Positions 46,420 to 54,233 of a stretch of 64,000 nucleotides of DNA are shown here, in pieces (position 1 is the first letter of the stretch; each line of letters starts with the position of its first letter). The position numbers and the translations under genes were made by a program. The notes below the pieces were generated by a model. That model had not been told where the DNA came from, searched no databases, and saw only the letters and a program-made list of their open reading frames with translations. The stretch is from Roseimicrobium gellanilyticum (GTDB taxonomy: Bacteria; Verrucomicrobiota; Verrucomicrobiia; Verrucomicrobiales; Verrucomicrobiaceae). Location of the stretch: assembly GCF_003315205.1 (NCBI RefSeq), contig NZ_QNRR01000003.1, positions 186,001 to 250,000 of the forward strand, given 5' to 3'.

Positions 46420-47145
46420 CTATATCTCAATGAAGTCTGCCACGAACTCATTCGCTGGCTTGTCGCGCAGGCTATTGGGTGTGCCGATTTGCTGAATCTC
46501 TCCTTCGTTCAGGACTACCACGCGATCCGCGAGTTCGAACGCCTCATCCTGATCGTGCGTCACGAAAAGGCTGGTGAGCTTCGTTTCATCGTGGAACTTG
46601 CGCAGCCAGCGGCGCAGTTCCTTGCGCACTTTGGCGTCGAGAGCTCCGAAAGGCTCGTCCAGAAGGAGCACGCGAGGGTTCACCGCAAGCGCACGAGCCA
46701 GAGCTACGCGCTGGCGCTGACCACCAGAAAGCTGGGCAGGGTAGCGACGGCCAAGCTCAGGCATCTGGATGCGCTCCAGCAGTTCCTGCACGGTTTCCTT
46801 GATCTCAGCACGCGAGGGGCGTTCGCGACGCTTCATCACCTTCAAACCAAACGCGATGTTCTGCTCCACCGTCATGTGATTGAAGAGTGCATAGTGCTGG
46901 AACACAAACCCGGCACGGCGCTCGTAAGCCGTACGCCAGGTGACATCGTCCCCCTGGAAGCGGATGCCTCCCGAGCCCTCGTCGGCAAATTCAAGACCGG
47001 CGATGATGCGCAGGAGCGTGGTCTTGCCGGAACCGCTGGGACCGAGCAGGGCCACCAACTCACCGGTCTCCACCTCGAGCGAGACGTCCTTCAGCGCATT
47101 GTAGCGTCCAAAGGTTTTGCGGATGTGATTGACTTGAATGCTCAT
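46420..47145 (-). CDS. cysA: Sulfate/thiosulfate ABC transporter ATP-binding protein
   Basis: This ATPase powers sulfate import. The 241 residues contain the Walker A motif [18 protein letters not shown], the Q-loop region [21 protein letters not shown], the signature [16 protein letters not shown], the Walker B motif [13 protein letters not shown] and the H-loop [17 protein letters not shown]. The FVFQHYALF form and [16 protein letters not shown] are typical of CysA. It is shorter than the E. coli protein (365 residues) and lacks the C-terminal regulatory TOBE domain. Its ATG overlaps the TGA of cysW (ATGA). It is the last gene of the sulfur-uptake operon, followed by inverted hairpin repeats. 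Confidence 0.94.
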
Positions 47146-48020
47146 GTGGTGGCGGTGGCTTTGCGGTTCGTGAAGGTTTTCAAGAGGAGTGTGACAAGCG
47201 CCAGCAGCGCGAGAAGGGAGGCACAGGCGAAGGCAGGGACCATCTGGTACTCGTTGTAAAGCACCTCGACGTGAAGAGGCAGTGTGTTCGTCTGGTTGCG
47301 GATGTGGCCGGAAACCACCGACACCGCGCCGAACTCACCCATGCTACGGGCATTGCAGAGGATGATGCCGTACAGCAGGCCCCACTTGATCTTCGGTAGG
47401 GTGACACGCCAGAACATCTGCCAGCCATTGGCGCCGAGGGTCATGGCAGCTTCTTCTTCCTTGTGTCCCTGGGATTCCATCTGCGGCGTCAGCACGCGGG
47501 CGACAAAGGGGAAGGTCACGAAGATGGTGCTCAGCACGATGCCAGGCAGGGCAAAGATGATTTTGAATCCGTGCTCTCTCAGAGAGGGACCGAAGAGGCC
47601 TTGTGCACCAAAGAGCAGGATGAAGATCAACCCTGAGATCACCGGTGACACCCAGAGGGGAAGCTCAATGAGCGTGCCAAGGAACCGCTTCCCCTTGAAG
47701 CGGAAGTGCGCAACGCACCACGCTGCGGCAATGCCAAAGATGGTATTCAGTGGCACCGCGATGGCGGCCACTTTCAAAGTAAGCCAAATCGCATGCATCG
47801 CTGCGCGATCATCGAATGCCTTGAGATAAGCGGCCCATCCTTTGCGGAAGGCCTCCTGAAACACCACCCACAACGGCAGCAGGAACATGGCGCCCATGAA
47901 GGCCACCACGAGCAGAATGATGGTCCAACGGAGGAACCACGGCTCAGCCGTGGCGCGCAGCACCGGCGAAGGCGCGCGGCGTCTTGCAGAACGAACAGGA
48001 AGGTCAGCGATAGCACCCAT
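47142..48020 (-). CDS. cysW: Sulfate/thiosulfate ABC transporter permease CysW
   Basis: This inner-membrane permease has 292 residues and about six membrane segments. The EAA loop that docks on CysA is [33 protein letters not shown]. The CysW-type segments are [31 protein letters not shown] and [27 protein letters not shown]. The C-terminus overlaps the cysA start by four bases. The N-terminal 30 residues are basic and lie in the cytoplasm. It follows cysT after 55 bases. Confidence 0.94.
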
Positions 48021-48075: not shown

Positions 48076-48903
48076 TTACTGCGCGGTCCGGCGTTCGTGC
48101 CAATTGATGAATCGATTGGAAATCACCAGGATGAGGAAGGATGCGAAGAGCATGAGCAGGCCAATCGTGGTGGCACCGGCATAGTCGTACTGCTCCAGGC
48201 GGGTCACGATGAGCAGCGGTGCGATCTCCGTCTTGAAGGGAAGATTTCCGGAAATGAAGACCACGGAACCATATTCCCCCACAGCGCGGCCAAAGGAGAG
48301 CGCCATGCCTGCCAGTGTAGAAGGCAAGATGGCCGGCAGGATCACGCGAGTAAGTGTCTGCCAGCGCGTGGCTCCAAGACAGGCAGCCGCCTCTTCCGGT
48401 TCCAGCGAAAGGTCGGCAATCACCGGCTGCACCGTGCGCACCACAAAGGGGAAGCCCACAAAGATGAGAGCCAGCGTGATGCCCGTGGGTGTGAAGGCCA
48501 CCTTGATATCAAATTCACTCAGCGGCTTTCCGATCAGTCCATTGACCGAATAGAGGGTCACCAAGGCAATGCCTGCTACCGCGGTGGGCAGAGCGAACGG
48601 CAAATCGACCATCGCATCGAGCAGGCGTTTCCCCGGGAAGCGATACCGCTCCAGGACCCATGCCGTGAGCACGCCAAAGAATCCATTCACCAGCGTTGCC
48701 GCCAATGCGGTGCCGAAGCTGAGCTTCAAGGAACCGAGCACCCGCACATCGGTAGCCGTTTTCCAGAAAGCCTCCCATCCACCCGTGCTGCTCTTCCAGA
48801 TAAGCGCAGAGAGGGGAATGAGGACAATCAGGATGAGATACAGGAGCGTGAACCCAAGGGTGAGCTTGAATCCGGGGAGCACATGGCGGCGATGTCGGGA
48901 CAT
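48076..48903 (-). CDS. cysT: Sulfate/thiosulfate ABC transporter permease CysT (CysU)
   Basis: This is the second permease of the sulfate transporter, 275 residues with about six membrane segments. Family features are [47 protein letters not shown] and the EAA loop [23 protein letters not shown]. The segment [26 protein letters not shown] is typical of CysT. It lies 17 bases after the M14-like hydrolase gene and pairs with CysW to form the membrane channel. Confidence 0.94.
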
Positions 48904-49676: not shown

Positions 49677-50639
49677 TTAGGCGGCAGTTTTCAGTCGGGC
49701 TTCATCGGCAAGGGCGGTCGAGAGGTAGCGTTCGCCGGTGCTGCAGCCCACGGTGACGATCAGCTTGCCCTCACTGTCTGCGCGGGCCGCGACTTGCAGT
49801 GCGGCCCAGACATTCGCTCCGGTGGAGATGCCGACCAGCAGGCCTTCTTCCAAAGCCAGACGCTGGGCCGTGGCGATGGCGTCCTCATTCGACACCGTGA
49901 GCACTTCATCAATGATGGAGGTGTTGAGATTTCCAGGAACAAATCCGGCACCAGTGCCTTGAATCTTGTGCGGCCCAGGGGTGAGCGGTTCACCTTTCAG
50001 AGTCTGTGAAATGACAGGCGAGGCGGAAGGCTCCACGGCGATGGCCTTGAGCGAGGGCTTACGCTCCTTGATGACTTCGCTCACCCCCGTGATGGTGCCG
50101 CCGGTGCCGACTGCGGAGACGAAGACATCGATGGCACCATACGAGTCCGCCCAGATTTCTTCCGCGGTGGTCTTGCGGTGAATCTCGGGATTGGCGGGGT
50201 TTTCAAATTGCTGGGGAATCCAGGAGTTCGGAATACTGGCGTGCAGTTCATTCGCCTTCGCAATCGCACCCTTCATGCCTTGTGCGGCAGGAGTCAGCAC
50301 AAGTTCCGCGCCCAGCAACGCCAGCAGTGTGCGGCGCTCCAGGCTCATGCTCTCCGGCATGGTGAGAATCAGACGGTATCCACGGGAAGCTGCGACAAAC
50401 GCGAGCGCGATTCCGGTGTTTCCCGAGGTGGGTTCGATAATAGTGGTGCCGGGCTTCAATCGGCCGGACTCTTCCGCGGCTTCAATCATGGCGCGGCCGA
50501 TGCGATCCTTCACGCTGCCCAGCGGATTCTTGAACTCGGCCTTCAGCGCGATGGTGCCGGGCAGACCAGCGGCAATGCGGTTCAGCTTGATGAGCGGCGT
50601 GCCGCCGACGGCTTCGACAATGTTGGGATGAAATGACAT
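49677..50639 (-). CDS. cysK: Cysteine synthase A (O-acetylserine sulfhydrylase)
   Basis: This PLP enzyme makes L-cysteine from O-acetylserine and sulfide. The 320 residues show the PLP lysine Lys44 in [11 protein letters not shown], the substrate loop [11 protein letters not shown], the phosphate-binding loop [12 protein letters not shown], and [14 protein letters not shown]. These are the CysK/O-acetylserine sulfhydrylase signatures. The ATG at 50639 starts at the family N-terminus ([17 protein letters not shown]). An upstream extension to 50717 runs through a hairpin and is not coding. It follows the sulfate-binding-protein gene after a strong hairpin. Confidence 0.94.
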
Positions 50640-50755: not shown

Positions 50756-51766
50756 TTAGTTCTGGGGCTTGTAGATCTGGTCGAAGGTGCCGCCTTCCGC
50801 GAAGTGCGTCTTGGCTGCCTTGGCCCAGCCACCGAACGCCTGATCGATGGTGAAGAGCTCAATCTTCGGGAACACACTGGCGTACTTGGCGGCGGCCTTC
50901 TCGCTGGTGGGGCGGTAGAAGTGCTTTCCGGCGAGGTCCTGACCCTCATCCGAGTAGAGGTAGTCAAGGTAGGCCTTGGCCACTTCGGTAGTGCCCTTCT
51001 TCGCGGCGTTCTTTTCCACGAGAGCCACAGTGGGCTGCGCGAGGATGCTCAGGGAAGGCACCACAATTTCAAAAGTATCCTTGCCGAATTCCTTCTGGGC
51101 GAGGAAGGCTTCATTCTCCCAGGAAATGAAGACATCACCCAGACCGCGCTGCACGAAGGTGGTGGTGGAACCACGGGCACCCGAGTCAAGCACTGGCACG
51201 TTTTTGTAGAGCTTGGCCACGAATTCTTTTGCTTTGTCTTCGCTGCCGAGCTTGCGCTTGGCGTATTCGAAAGCGGCGAGGAAGTTCCACTGGGCGCCAC
51301 CGGAGGTCTTCGGGTTCGGAGTGATCACGGCCACGCCTTCCTTGGTGAGGTCATCCCAGTCCTTGATGCCCTTGGGATTGCCCTTGCGCACTAGGAACAC
51401 GATCGTGGAGGTGTACGGCGCCGAGTCCTTCGGCAGCTTGGTCTGCCAGTCGGCGGGAAGAAGGCCGGCCTTCTCGGAGATGGCGGTCACGTCATTGGCG
51501 AGCGCGAGGGTCACCACATCCGCTTCGAGACCGTCGATGACGGAGCGAGCCTGCTTGCCGGAGCCACCATGCGACTGGTCGATGGTGATTTCCTTGCCGG
51601 ACTTTTCCTTCCAATGCTTGATGAAGGCGGCGTTGTACTCCACGTAGAATTCACGCGTGGGGTCATAGGAAACATTGAGCAGGTTCTGGGCGGAGGCAGC
51701 CTCGGAGCCGAGGACGCTGGCGCCGGCGAACGCGAGGAGGGATTTCAGGAAGGTTCTGCTTTTCAT
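50756..51766 (-). CDS. Periplasmic sulfate/thiosulfate-binding protein
   Basis: The 336-residue protein is the extracytoplasmic receptor of the sulfate ABC transporter (Sbp/CysP family). A signal peptide ([21 protein letters not shown]) precedes the family signatures [45 protein letters not shown] and [22 protein letters not shown]. Sbp and CysP cannot be told apart here. It lies between the porin gene and cysK, and the hairpin at its 3' end should raise its transcript level. Confidence 0.93.
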
Positions 51767-51841: not shown

Positions 51842-53041
51842 TTAGAAGGAGAAGCGCACGCCGGTCAGCACGGTCCAGCCGTCGTAGTCACCGCCGTTGC
51901 CGCCGCCATCGACCGTGGCGTATTCCGCGCCGGCCAGGACCTTGAGCTTGTCTCCGTAGATGAAGTACTGGAGGCCGCCGTAGAAGGCGTTGTAGTTCTC
52001 GCCACGACCGCTGCCGGTGAGTTCCGGAGCTGCGCGCTCATAGCGGCTCTGCGCCTGCACGCTGTTGTTGCCATCGCCCACGGAGAAGCTGTAGCGGCCC
52101 ACGGCCTGAAGCTTGTCCTTGATGATGTCGAATGTGGGCTGGATGTAGAAGCCGAAGGCATCATCCCAGCCGGGATCACCACCGGTGGCGAGGAAGAATT
52201 CCGTCACCAGGCTCCAGCGGCCTTCCTTCACCCAGAAGGTGGTGGTGAAGAGATCTTCGTAGCGATCAAGGATGGTGGCACCCTCGTCATCAGCCTCGCT
52301 GTGCAGCCAGTCAAAGCGGAGGTCCGCCTTGTCCGTGCCGAGCGCGTCCTTCAGATTGTAGCCCACACCAGCGCCGTAAGCGATGCCGCCGTCGAACTGG
52401 CCGAACTCCTCGTCGATGTCGTTCGAGTAGATGCCCGCCTGCCAGGTGAACTTGTCCACTTTGCCCTCGAAGACCGCACCCACCACGCGATCCACGCGGA
52501 GCTGGTTGAAGATCTGTGAACGCTCAAAGGTCGGCTGGTTGTTCGTGGACTGGAGGAAGTCGTAGTACGCGATCTGCGGCTTCTGGCGGCCCACGGTGAG
52601 CGCAAAGCTGTCCGAAGGCTTCCACTTCACGTAGGCGTCCACGAGGCCGTTGTAGAACGGGTCGAACTCATCGGAGCTCTGCGCATCCAAGCGGACTTCG
52701 AACTGGTTGAAGAGCTTCGCATCGAAGCCGAAGCGCGAGCGACGATCTTCCCAACCGTCGTCATCGCCCTGGTCGGAATCCACCCAGTGATACTGGCCCT
52801 GGTAGCGACCACGGAGCTTGAACTCCTGGAGTACGGGATTGTCCTTGTTCTTGTAGATGGTGGCGAGTCCCCAGATCTTGTCATAGATGGACTCGTCCTT
52901 CTTCTCCGTGGTGATCACGTCCTTGGCGGACTTGCCGGAGGAGGCGATGACAGGTTCGCCGGCGTGAAGCGCGCCTGCAGCAGACACTGCTGCTGCGAGG
53001 AGCAGGAGGTTACGTCGGCCAATGTGTTTCTTGAGATGCAT
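51842..53041 (-). CDS. OprO/OprP-like outer-membrane porin in the sulfur operon
   Basis: The 399 residues have a signal peptide (NLLLLAAAVSAAGALHAG) and an outer-membrane beta-barrel with alternating strands (FKLRGRYQGQYHWVDSD, FEVRLDAQSSDEFDPFYNGL, DLRFDWLHSEADDEG, SLVTEFFLATGG) ending in aromatic FSF. This pattern matches the phosphate-selective porin O/P family. It would admit anions to the periplasm, here presumably sulfate or thiosulfate since it heads the sulfate operon. The ATG at 53041 is chosen; the longer frame lies in the leader. A structured leader and an Rrf2-type promoter region lie upstream. Confidence 0.88.
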   Translation of the reverse strand: MHLKKHIGRRNLLLLAAAVSAAGALHAGEPVIASSGKSAKDVITTEKKDESIYDKIWGLATIYKNKDNPVLQEFKLRGRYQGQYHWVDSDQGDDDGWEDRRSRFGFDAKLFNQFEVRLDAQSSDEFDPFYNGLVDAYVKWKPSDSFALTVGRQKPQIAYYDFLQSTNNQPTFERSQIFNQLRVDRVVGAVFEGKVDKFTWQAGIYSNDIDEEFGQFDGGIAYGAGVGYNLKDALGTDKADLRFDWLHSEADDEGATILDRYEDLFTTTFWVKEGRWSLVTEFFLATGGDPGWDDAFGFYIQPTFDIIKDKLQAVGRYSFSVGDGNNSVQAQSRYERAAPELTGSGRGENYNAFYGGLQYFIYGDKLKVLAGAEYATVDGGGNGGDYDGWTVLTGVRFSF

Positions 53042-53135
53042 TGCTGATGAGGTGTGTGTTTGCGTGGTTGTTGTCGGTGGGAATCTGCGGTCCTCGGGGG
53101 TGGAGGTGGCCGGCGGCCCAAAAGGATCTGGAAAC

Positions 53136-53278
53136 AAAAAAAGAGACTGAGGGGAGGAACAGAGGACGGCAGAAGGATCCGTGTGGTGGCTCAGAGAGCC
53201 ATGCCACAGGTGCCTTTGTCGAAACCTCCGGTGCTCCGGTCAGTCTCCTGGTTGCTACAGCGGTTTTCACCGCGCTGT
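53136..53278 (-). promoter_or_regulatory. Structured leader RNA upstream of the sulfur-uptake operon, possible attenuator
   Basis: The leader starts near the predicted transcription start. Stem 1 (53278-53257) pairs ACAGC/GCTGT and GGT/ACC around a GAAA loop with a two-base bulge. A CCGG/CCGG hairpin lies at 53239-53228. Stem 3 (53208-53182) pairs TGTGG/CCACA and TGGCTC/GAGCCA. A long-range helix joins GAGACTGA (53247-53240) to TCAGTCTC (53150-53143), extendable by one G-U and one A-U pair. It is followed at once by seven T residues (53142-53136), as in an intrinsic terminator. It is not a SAM-I riboswitch by its core sequence. Ligand and function are unknown. Confidence 0.55.
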
Positions 53279-53283
53279 TCCAG

Positions 53284-53312
53284 TGTATACATATCTAATT
53301 TACATCTGGCAA
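53284..53312 (-). promoter_or_regulatory. Predicted sigma-70-type promoter of the porin-sulfate operon
   Basis: On the minus strand TTGCCA (53312-53307) and TATACA (53289-53284) are separated by exactly 17 bases, matching the -35 and -10 elements at five and four of six positions. The transcription start would be about 53278, where leader stem 1 begins. The -35 lies inside the Rrf2-type motif. Confidence 0.6.
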
Positions 53313-53321
53313 GTAGGAATT
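53300..53321 (-). promoter_or_regulatory. Putative Rrf2 operator at the porin-sulfate promoter
   Basis: Minus strand AATTCCTACTTGCC followed by two bases and ATGTA matches the site upstream of the Rrf2 gene (54191-54211) in 19 of 21 positions. The form CCTAC-N9-GTAA is a degenerate dyad like those bound by Rrf2 regulators such as CymR and IscR. It covers the -35 element, which would fit repression when sulfur is plentiful. Confidence 0.6.
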
Positions 53322-53352
53322 GGAGCAAAAATAAAAGAGCGTTGCTGCGACC

Positions 53353-53565
53353 TTAGATTTTGCGCTTCACGGCGGCGTAGGAGGAAGACGAACCATTCGT
53401 GGATCCGGCGTCGCTCAGGCGGGTCTTTTCGGTGCTTTCCACCTGGGTGACACGACCCTCATGCACGACGATCTGGACGGAGCCAAAGCGGAGGTTTCCG
53501 ACCTTGCGGCGGACGATTTCAAGCCACGGTTCGGCGGCGACTTCTGTTTCGTTGAGAATGCTCAT
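53353..53565 (-). CDS. DUF2292 (YezD-family) small protein
   Basis: The 70-residue protein has the DUF2292 core: PWLEIVRRKVGNLRFGSVQIVVHEG, then RVTQVESTEKTRL. In Bacillus and other genomes this family is encoded beside sulfate and sulfonate uptake or cysteine synthesis genes, and its molecular role is unknown. Here it lies nine bases after the Rrf2 regulator gene and just upstream of the sulfate operon promoter, which agrees with that association. The ATG at 53565 is used; four more codons upstream are possible. The C-terminal 20 residues are a Ser-rich, basic tail. Confidence 0.88.
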   Translation of the reverse strand: MSILNETEVAAEPWLEIVRRKVGNLRFGSVQIVVHEGRVTQVESTEKTRLSDAGSTNGSSSSYAAVKRKI

Positions 53566-53573
53566 GGGGCTGA

Positions 53574-54158
53574 TCATAGTTGGGGCTGGGAACTGGTGAG
53601 GAGAGAGAGGAATCCATCGAGGGGATCCGCGTGCTTAACGCGTTTCGGCTTGGTCACGCGTGCATTGGTTTTTTTGCGGAGATTTTTTTCGGGAACAGCA
53701 TAGGGCATTGCCACGCCATCCCGTTCCATCTTGCGCAGTGTCACGGAGACCACGTCCGCGAGTGTGTACTTGTCCAGGATGCGGGCAATGGCATTGCGCA
53801 CGTCAATCATCATCATGCGCAGACCGCAGTGCGTCTCATCCGGGCACGTGCAGCGGGAGTAGTCCGTTTCACTGGCGCAGCCAATCGGAGCAAGGCGCCC
53901 ATCGATGAGGCGGACCACTTCGCCGATGGTGATTTCCTTCATGGGCCGGGCCAGCCTGGCGCCACCTTCCTTGCCGCGTTTGCTCTCCACATACCCGTGG
54001 CGGCGCAGTTCCTGCAGGATGTTCTCAATGAACTTGTACGGCAGGTTCTCACTGTCGGAAAGGTCCGACACGGACACCACATCACGCCCGAGACGTTCGG
54101 CAATGCCGAGCTGGATGAGGGTGCGGAGTGCGTATTCGCCTTTCTTCGTGAGCTTCAT
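53574..54158 (-). CDS. Rrf2-family transcriptional regulator of the sulfur locus
   Basis: The 194 residues begin with the Rrf2 winged helix (MKLTKKGEYALRTLIQLGIA, ENLPYKFIENILQELRRHGYVESKRGKEGG). The dimerisation helix and a cysteine cluster follow (Cys94, 103, 105 and 111 in IGCASETDYSRCTCPDETHCG). Four cysteines in this region could hold an iron-sulfur cluster as in IscR or NsrR. CymR-type sulfur regulators lack such a cluster, so the mode of sensing is open. A basic C-terminal extension of about 45 residues (RKKTNARVTKPKRVK) is unusual. The gene precedes DUF2292 and the sulfate operon, and a matching motif lies upstream of both promoters, implying autoregulation and control of sulfate uptake. 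Confidence 0.92.
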   Translation of the reverse strand: MKLTKKGEYALRTLIQLGIAERLGRDVVSVSDLSDSENLPYKFIENILQELRRHGYVESKRGKEGGARLARPMKEITIGEVVRLIDGRLAPIGCASETDYSRCTCPDETHCGLRMMMIDVRNAIARILDKYTLADVVSVTLRKMERDGVAMPYAVPEKNLRKKTNARVTKPKRVKHADPLDGFLSLLTSSQPQL

Positions 54159-54190
54159 GGTGGTGGTGCCGACTATCGTACCTTCCAATC

Positions 54191-54233
54191 TACATAGGGC
54201 AAGTAGGAATTAAAACAATTGTACACCTGGCAA
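54191..54233 (-). promoter_or_regulatory. Putative Rrf2 autoregulatory operator
   Basis: Minus strand AATTCCTACTTGCCCTATGTA (54211-54191) matches the porin-promoter site and forms the dyad CCTAC-N9-GTAG. A further degenerate copy, TTGCCAGGTGTAC (about 54232-54220), lies just upstream. The site is 33-53 bases before the Rrf2 start. Confidence 0.6.

Follow-up and report, generated by a model that had tools for sequence, protein, structure and literature searches.

How is the sulfate operon of Roseimicrobium gellanilyticum (Verrucomicrobiota) controlled by the RNA that precedes its genes? The window analysed here is a whole stretch of 64,000 nucleotides (contig NZ_QNRR01000003.1, positions 186,001 to 250,000), and all positions below are counted within it. 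On its minus strand, an Rrf2 regulator gene is followed by a DUF2292 ORF, a leader, and then the genes for a porin, a sulfate-binding protein, cysK, an AstE-like ORF, cysT, cysW and a cysA-like ATPase (Table 1). The original prediction described this region as a sulfate operon with an Rrf2 gene, and the profile matches confirm it; the sulfate genes around the leader likewise support the link to sulfur that was claimed for it. The leader was also said to be under Rrf2 control. In agreement with this, an operator-like sequence lies upstream of the leader, another copy is present before the rrf2 gene, and both share CCTACTTGCCNNATGTANATT. The chance figure of 0 for this pattern, which was written from its two copies, is flattering. 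Judging by their sequence, the copies are the probable operator of the Rrf2 regulator, which would bind there. By eye, similar operator-like sequences are seen before the leaders of two relatives (L005 and L006). A strict sigma-70 scan found no promoter at the leader.

The leader was further predicted to be a structured RNA, with a long-range helix that encloses about 90 bases and ends at a run of seven U residues. Both the sequence and the fold bear this out. On the minus strand, GAGACTGA and TCAGTCTC (53247-53240 and 53150-53143, respectively) are exactly complementary and pair with 89 nt between them; the U7 run (53142-53136, minus strand) is placed directly 3' of TCAGTCTC. The RNA fold of 53278-53130 has an energy of -64.1 kcal/mol, whereas shuffles average -42.8 (z -6.0) and none of 200 is as good; the computed helix extends to 10 pairs (AGGAGACTGA/TCAGTCTCUU). 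The putative U7 terminator was not called by a simple terminator scan, which is restricted to loops of 3-8. A comparison of 11 leaders, among them those of the window and of its genus-mate, shows a long helix of this kind in 8; these are not independent events, because several of the leaders are closely related. The three leaders without it are of the Verrucomicrobium type. In L005 and L006, the long helix is present and the U run is absent.

The leader was also said to differ in its core from SAM-I and was not matched to a known RNA class, and the Rfam scans agree. Rfam 15 gave no family at the gathering score in the whole window, and no match up to E 5 in 53040-53360. In 19 loci that carry the hairpin described below, only tRNA and pemK RNA were matched, both away from the hairpins. 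The matches in two further loci (L113 and L084) were sub-threshold only, and the best sub-threshold match is sau-63 (30.3 bits vs 100, E 4e-4), which overlaps the L113 hairpin. SAM-I or another listed RNA is ruled out by these scans of the window and of the hairpin loci.

Which part of the leader, then, is conserved? A DNA search with the leader in 59 genomes of the family gave a match in 10, of which 8 are outside the genus. Seven of these eight cover 30-36 nt at the 5' arm and hairpin, and the eighth lies elsewhere. Conservation of the inner ~90 nt was not found outside the genus, and their sequence differs in the relatives compared. A conserved aptamer core was sought, and only a 23-nt hairpin turned out to be conserved. 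The long helix noticed at the outset is therefore real, but the conserved object is this short hairpin, which overlaps the 5' arm of the helix. Similarly, the proposed aptamer-plus-terminator survives as an attenuator layout in sulfur metabolism; its 90-nt aptamer was rejected, since seven of the eight matches outside the genus consist of the hairpin alone.

Table 1. Features of the leader and its neighbouring genes (positions within the window)
Feature	Position	Strand	Basis or remark
Conserved hairpin GACT-GA-CCGG-AGCA-CCGG-A-GGTT	53223..53245	-	Model score, pattern scan, covariation in relatives
Long-range helix, 5' arm AGGAGACTGA	53240..53249	-	Computed folds; overlaps 5' arm of the conserved hairpin
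Long-range helix, 3' arm TCAGTCTCTT	53141..53150	-	Sequence and computed folds
U7 run, putative intrinsic terminator	53136..53142	-	Immediately follows the 3' arm core
Small hairpin GCGCGGTGAAAACCGCTGT, 5' end of the presumed leader	53257..53275	-	Computed folds
Operator-like sequence CCTACTTGCCAGATGTAAATT, 21 nt, upstream of the leader	53297..53317	-	Pattern search
Second operator-like copy, in front of the rrf2 gene	54187..54207	-	Pattern search
Rrf2-family regulator ORF	53574..54188	-	Likely start MKLTKKGEY at about 54158, inferred
DUF2292 (YezD/OscA-like) gene, 70 aa	53353..53565	-	PF10055, 6.8e-15; stop 107 nt before the hairpin
Porin (Porin_O_P), first gene behind the leader	51842..53041	-	
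Sulfate-binding protein	50756..51766	-	NF008022, TIGR00971
Cysteine synthase A (cysK)	49677..50639	-	TIGR01139
Sulfate permease subunit cysT	48076..48903	-	TIGR02139
Sulfate permease subunit cysW	47142..48020	-	TIGR02140
Sulfate ABC transporter ATPase (cysA-like)	46420..47145	-	TIGR00968

In the window, the hairpin is made up of P1, a GA/A internal loop, P2 (CCGG/CCGG) and an NNNA loop, and it is situated at the 5' end of the enclosed part. The family consensus among the relatives is GRCU-GA-CCGG-NNNA-CCGG-A-RGUN. Its general form has a P1 of 3-4 bp, the asymmetric GA/A internal loop, a P2 of 4 bp and a loop of 4-5 nt that mostly ends in A. The internal loop is strongly conserved and the tetraloop is variable. 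A scan of the window found a single match, with 0.04 expected by chance. An exact scan of the genome contig collection gave 87 stretches with 88 hairpin instances, in Verrucomicrobiota, Lachnospiraceae and Ruminococcus relatives, Desulfuromonadales, Methylococcales, Nitrospira, Alcanivorax and Treponema. By position, 20 of the 87 stretches were judged to be coding or chance; this split from the contextual loci was made from position and partly from a visible yezD neighbour. A looser pattern with up to two mismatches matched 42 of 286 genomes and was not used alone as evidence, because its reversed control matches many genomes and many of the matches look coding by eye. On the sequences compared, the hairpin is, as far as can be judged from them, a widespread cis-regulatory RNA that is absent from the Rfam listing.

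The hairpin also occurs in tandem. The descriptor found 17 further matches on the same strand as a known copy and no more than 400 nt from it (3 are the same place fetched twice), and its background is 26 matches elsewhere in 1.55 Mb, both strands counted. Tandem hairpins are present in L046, L048, L073, L074, L108, L113 and L132, which belong to several lineages. The second copies in L046 (GGTT-GA-CTGG-AAAAA-CCAG-A-GACC) and L073 (GACC-GA-CCAG-ATCC-CTGG-A-GGCC) have stems that differ from those of the first copy, yet remain complementary. A further form, CGCC-GA-(stem)-A-CGCC, is seen in L006, L007, L077, L095, L114 and L127 (for example L007:1670-1692), about 160-180 nt behind the first hairpin and shortly before the next start; the descriptor found none in the window leader or in L002. 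The window's own genome holds a weaker copy, GAACC-GA-CCGG-ACTA-CCGG-A-GGGC (21.7 bits), at about position 1000 of L314 (G000:C7:306505-308527), between an ORF that looks sulfatase-like by eye and an exported-protein ORF.

Strand bias and pairing were followed in 80 regions chosen by DUF2292 alone, namely the listed class-sample matches without an earlier locus, down to G563 (L241 and L307 are short, and no stop was found in L271). A sequence-only matrix at a score of at least 4 found a site on the sense strand in 42 of the 80 and on the antisense strand in none; 10 of the 42 sense sites are identical to a row of the matrix. When the matrix was built from 33 rows of other phyla, with no Verrucomicrobiota, it gave 42 sense and 1 antisense among the 80, and at a score of at least 10 it gave 40 and 0. 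The phylum labels are those of the record titles, and L123-L126 carry none.

For covariation, 40 of the 42 sites picked by the pairing-blind matrix were taken, two with repeated sequence being dropped. The score is 0.324 against 0.177 for shuffles, with 0 of 500 as high, and the best slid control is 0.123; P2 alone gives 0.241 vs 0.075. In this alignment, 37 cells are changed on both sides, and GC, AU, CG and UA are all seen at the inner P2 pair 9-17. The weakest of the five measures is that of further pair types, where 32 of 500 shuffles reach the observed value. A separate set of 84 sites (of 85, one stray match being dropped) was picked with the pairing descriptor, and its pair counts are therefore biased. 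Covariation together with the sense-strand bias supports an RNA element. Covariation analysis had been proposed as a check on the predicted helices, and it is the stems of the short hairpin that covary; the long helix first noticed is excluded by this hairpin.

The two structures are mutually exclusive because their 5' arms overlap. By sequence and computed folds, the leader thus has two alternative folds, one of which is terminator-like with a U run. In folds of the growing chain, which are equilibrium calculations and not kinetics, the window hairpin has a probability of 0.86-1.0 at six of seven lengths between 60 and 120 nt (0.45 at 90 nt). From 128 nt on, this falls to 0 and the long helix replaces the hairpin; forcing the hairpin in the 156-nt segment costs about 16 kcal/mol. 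In the wider collection, 16 of the 67 contextual loci contain a complement of a hairpin arm followed by a U run, where shuffles give 0.2 on average and 2 at most; the 20 chance loci contain none. Clostridia and Desulfuromonadales mainly re-use the 3' arm, and the window's family re-uses the 5' arm via the long helix. The 3' arm has an unusually good downstream partner (p<=0.05) in 23 of 66 loci vs 2 of 20 chance loci. One of these partners is found in Alcanivorax, where AAGTCTCCG of the 3' arm is complementary to CGGAGGCTT, a stretch that includes the presumed SD of a gene identified by eye as sbp. Since covariation backs the short hairpin and this excludes the long helix, the layout is that of an antiterminator hairpin against a terminator.

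Scans of whole genomes give a measure of how far the hairpin can be used by itself. With a model built without Verrucomicrobiota rows (R3), the window hairpin is the best match in 115 genomes (32.6 bits). The two best matches (G000 and G142) are both beside DUF2292 genes, as is a third (G109), out of 12 at E<=0.005; the sites of G362, G370 and G116 fail this limit. As only 3 of the 12 are beside DUF2292, the hairpin by itself is not long enough for a specific search. An earlier model (R1), which matched 72 of 115 genomes at E<=0.3, was set aside because the sites of G000, G142, G362, G109, G116 and G370 had trained it and its E-values are lenient. Of 18 of its stronger matches in genomes without DUF2292, 14 are inside a same-strand ORF of at least 100 aa; the others are L156, L161, L163 and L168, the first of which precedes a prepilin-like ORF by 43 nt.

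What do these hairpins precede? Outside Verrucomicrobiota, ten genes in first or second place behind a hairpin were checked against NCBIfam. A sulfonate-binding protein of the SsuA family (L110) and a nifH-type protein (L113) are above the curated cut-offs; two SsuA-like proteins, one SsuC/TauC-like permease, one NifB-like and one nitrogenase-alpha-like protein are below them, and for three of the ten NCBIfam gave nothing. Further assignments came from Pfam: two porins, two solute-binding proteins, an alginate-export-like protein, an ATC hydrolase and GST-like, DUF1847 and ferredoxin-like proteins, with one checked protein left without a match. Judged from these profiles, the genes behind the hairpin lean to sulfur scavenging, with no evident sulfur role for the prepilin-like, alginate-export-like, DUF1847 and GST-like ones. 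The nitrogenase-like genes may be methylthio-alkane reductases. A hairpin with a terminator-like stretch is seen before NifB-like, NifD-like or NifH-type genes in L085, L097, L102, L113 and L185, which suggests sulfur control of nitrogenase-like systems. Hairpins are also seen shortly before prepilin-like ORFs (L019, L020, L022, L156) and, in Limisphaerales and their relatives, before small exported proteins (L021, L064, L082, L107, L112, L120, L122), some of the latter directly behind a cysK-like C-terminus.

A frequent companion of the hairpin is DUF2292. In at least 43 of the 88 instances, the hairpin follows a same-strand ORF of this family at a distance of -10 to 300 nt from its end; ORF counts of this kind are lower bounds because they were taken by regular expression. 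At the level of genomes, 33 of 34 with a contextual hairpin have DUF2292, vs 1 of 16 with a chance or coding match. These 50 genomes stand for 34 contextual and 16 chance loci out of the 87, with none titled Verrucomicrobiota and with L048, L103, L106, L109, L117 and L121 also left out. The single hairpin genome without DUF2292 is G415, a metagenome-assembled record. The base rates are 12/115 in the phylum sample, 126/385 in the class sample and 7/98 around the clostridial centre. Where the hairpin has no DUF2292 neighbour, eight of nine such genomes still have the gene (Fisher p 7e-5), in one case (L049) 1.2 kb from the hairpin; this count partly avoids the bias of a contextual split informed by yezD. 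DUF2292 thus shows the co-occurrence expected of a cognate protein, in a comparison that covered DUF2292 alone among proteins. No recognisable hairpin was found in 38 of the 80 DUF2292 regions or at the oscA-sbp locus of Pseudomonas (L194), and at the latter DUF2292 therefore needs no hairpin. Among the readable cores of the 80 regions (32 with and 32 without an adjacent hairpin), no clear residue separates the two groups. Two Desulfuromonadales genomes hold several DUF2292 copies, four in G431 (L078) and three in G429 (L074), with diverged hairpins nearby; a co-evolving specificity of protein and hairpin is possible there.

The small ORF of the window is a member of the OscA/YezD/DUF2292 family (PF10055, 54.8 bits, gathering cut-off 22) and stays below the cut-off of the OscA equivalog NF033785 (36.4 bits vs 85). 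For DUF2292, the AlphaFold2 model consists of one helix and a beta hairpin, with a pLDDT of 78.7 and block means above 90 for residues 11-50. Foldseek gave no match better than E 2.4, and the best hit of the VIA comparison has a Z of 2.3 with an rmsd of 4.7 over 41 residues. Thus, no known RNA-binding fold was matched in these structure searches, which does not imply a new fold. On average, the DUF2292 core carries a net charge of +1.6, and its H, Q, E, K/R and R positions are nearly invariant, features compatible with RNA binding. According to PMC2996968 and PMC3596284, oscA of Pseudomonas corrugata forms one transcriptional unit with the gene of a sulfate-binding protein and is overexpressed after chromate, and OscA is described there only as a small protein, its function unknown, with a connection to sulfur starvation and to chromate. 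The Pseudomonas locus compared here (L194) lacks the hairpin that the window locus carries.

Taken together, the hairpin is very likely a cis-regulatory element of sulfur genes. It is most simply an ON state, because the competing folds would shut the gene, and we regard this polarity as likely. The reading that we favour, and hold to be probable, is that the hairpin forms the ON state of a sulfur-starvation attenuator and is held by a factor, for which DUF2292 is the best candidate. In the growing RNA of the window, the hairpin would form first. The long helix is far stronger and would displace it as soon as the 3' arm has been made, so that transcription would stop at U7 (53136) by default. 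In sulfur shortage, a factor would be made or activated and would hold the hairpin; RNA polymerase would then pass U7, and the porin-sbp-cysK-cysTWA genes would be transcribed. A standing hairpin is proposed to block the competing fold. In the window, this fold would be the long-range terminator; Clostridia and Desulfuromonadales would have a local terminator instead, and in Alcanivorax the fold may be a helix that masks the SD. The best candidate for the factor would be the DUF2292 (YezD/OscA) protein encoded just upstream; its direct binding to the hairpin is a tentative proposal.

Other explanations account for parts of these data. The larger aptamer first envisaged, built from the ~90 nt that the long helix encloses, could draw on the very stable fold (z -6.0). 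It is very improbable, as the inner 90 nt are not found conserved outside the genus and differ in the relatives compared, and the covarying element excludes the long helix. A hairpin for mRNA processing or stability between yezD and the next gene, with no switching, would explain why many copies lie directly behind the yezD stop. However, the re-use of an arm in terminators is far above shuffles, the window copy follows an operator-like sequence and not only a stop codon, and there are copies near starts and away from yezD, all of which make mere processing improbable.

The hairpin could also be a very small riboswitch, partly a tandem pair, that senses a sulfur compound, with DUF2292 merely co-regulated; the tandem hairpins in several lineages, the strongly conserved internal loop and the sulfur gene context would all suit it. 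Still, a 23-nt core with a variable tetraloop is small for an aptamer, and DUF2292 is present in eight of the nine genomes whose hairpin copy has none beside it. We consider such a riboswitch unlikely; the co-occurrence suggests that the binding partner is a protein (DUF2292) rather than a metabolite. The binder could be a different one: another RNA-binding protein, or general machinery, would have its site at the hairpin, and DUF2292 would act elsewhere in the sulfur-starvation response. The many DUF2292 genes without a recognisable hairpin (38/80) and the function of OscA, described as unknown in the sources above, agree with this. Such a binder would, however, need a similarly narrow range to that of DUF2292 (12/115 in the phylum sample, 126/385 in the class sample, 33/34 among hairpin genomes), and this possibility seems rather doubtful.

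The favoured reading, a factor-held antiterminator hairpin, has known parallels. The LicT/SacY RAT and the ANTAR two-hairpin elements are protein-dependent antiterminator hairpins; they are small, sometimes tandem, exclude a terminator and serve genes of one nutrient pathway. The hairpin described here is like them in being small and conserved, in overlapping and excluding a terminator and in serving one nutrient pathway. It differs from them in its own sequence with the GA/A internal loop and in its candidate binder, a helix-plus-beta-hairpin family (Pfam core of 37 positions) with no recognised RNA-binding fold. For bacilli, PMC2965389 reports an attenuator upstream of a sulfonate ABC operon, with a proposed role in sulfonate metabolism; it is likened to the hairpin by this description. 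The dauA motif (PMC11109978) is a leader RNA with a possible response to sulfate, and the SD is covered by it; as a three-stem junction of Streptomyces, it differs from the hairpin in structure and lineage. Among the open-access literature matches listed, there was no description of the hairpin or of a DUF2292 mechanism.

The small size and clear definition of the hairpin make it amenable to direct tests of binding and termination, and further genes of sulfur starvation can be sought with it. It may be, though we put this forward with reserve, that DUF2292/YezD/OscA proteins form a new class of RNA-binding regulator, which captures a hairpin in nascent mRNAs at times of starvation and so frees sulfur-scavenging genes in several phyla. 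If this is true, such capture by DUF2292 would relieve the termination or start-site masking of sulfate, sulfonate and nitrogenase-like systems.
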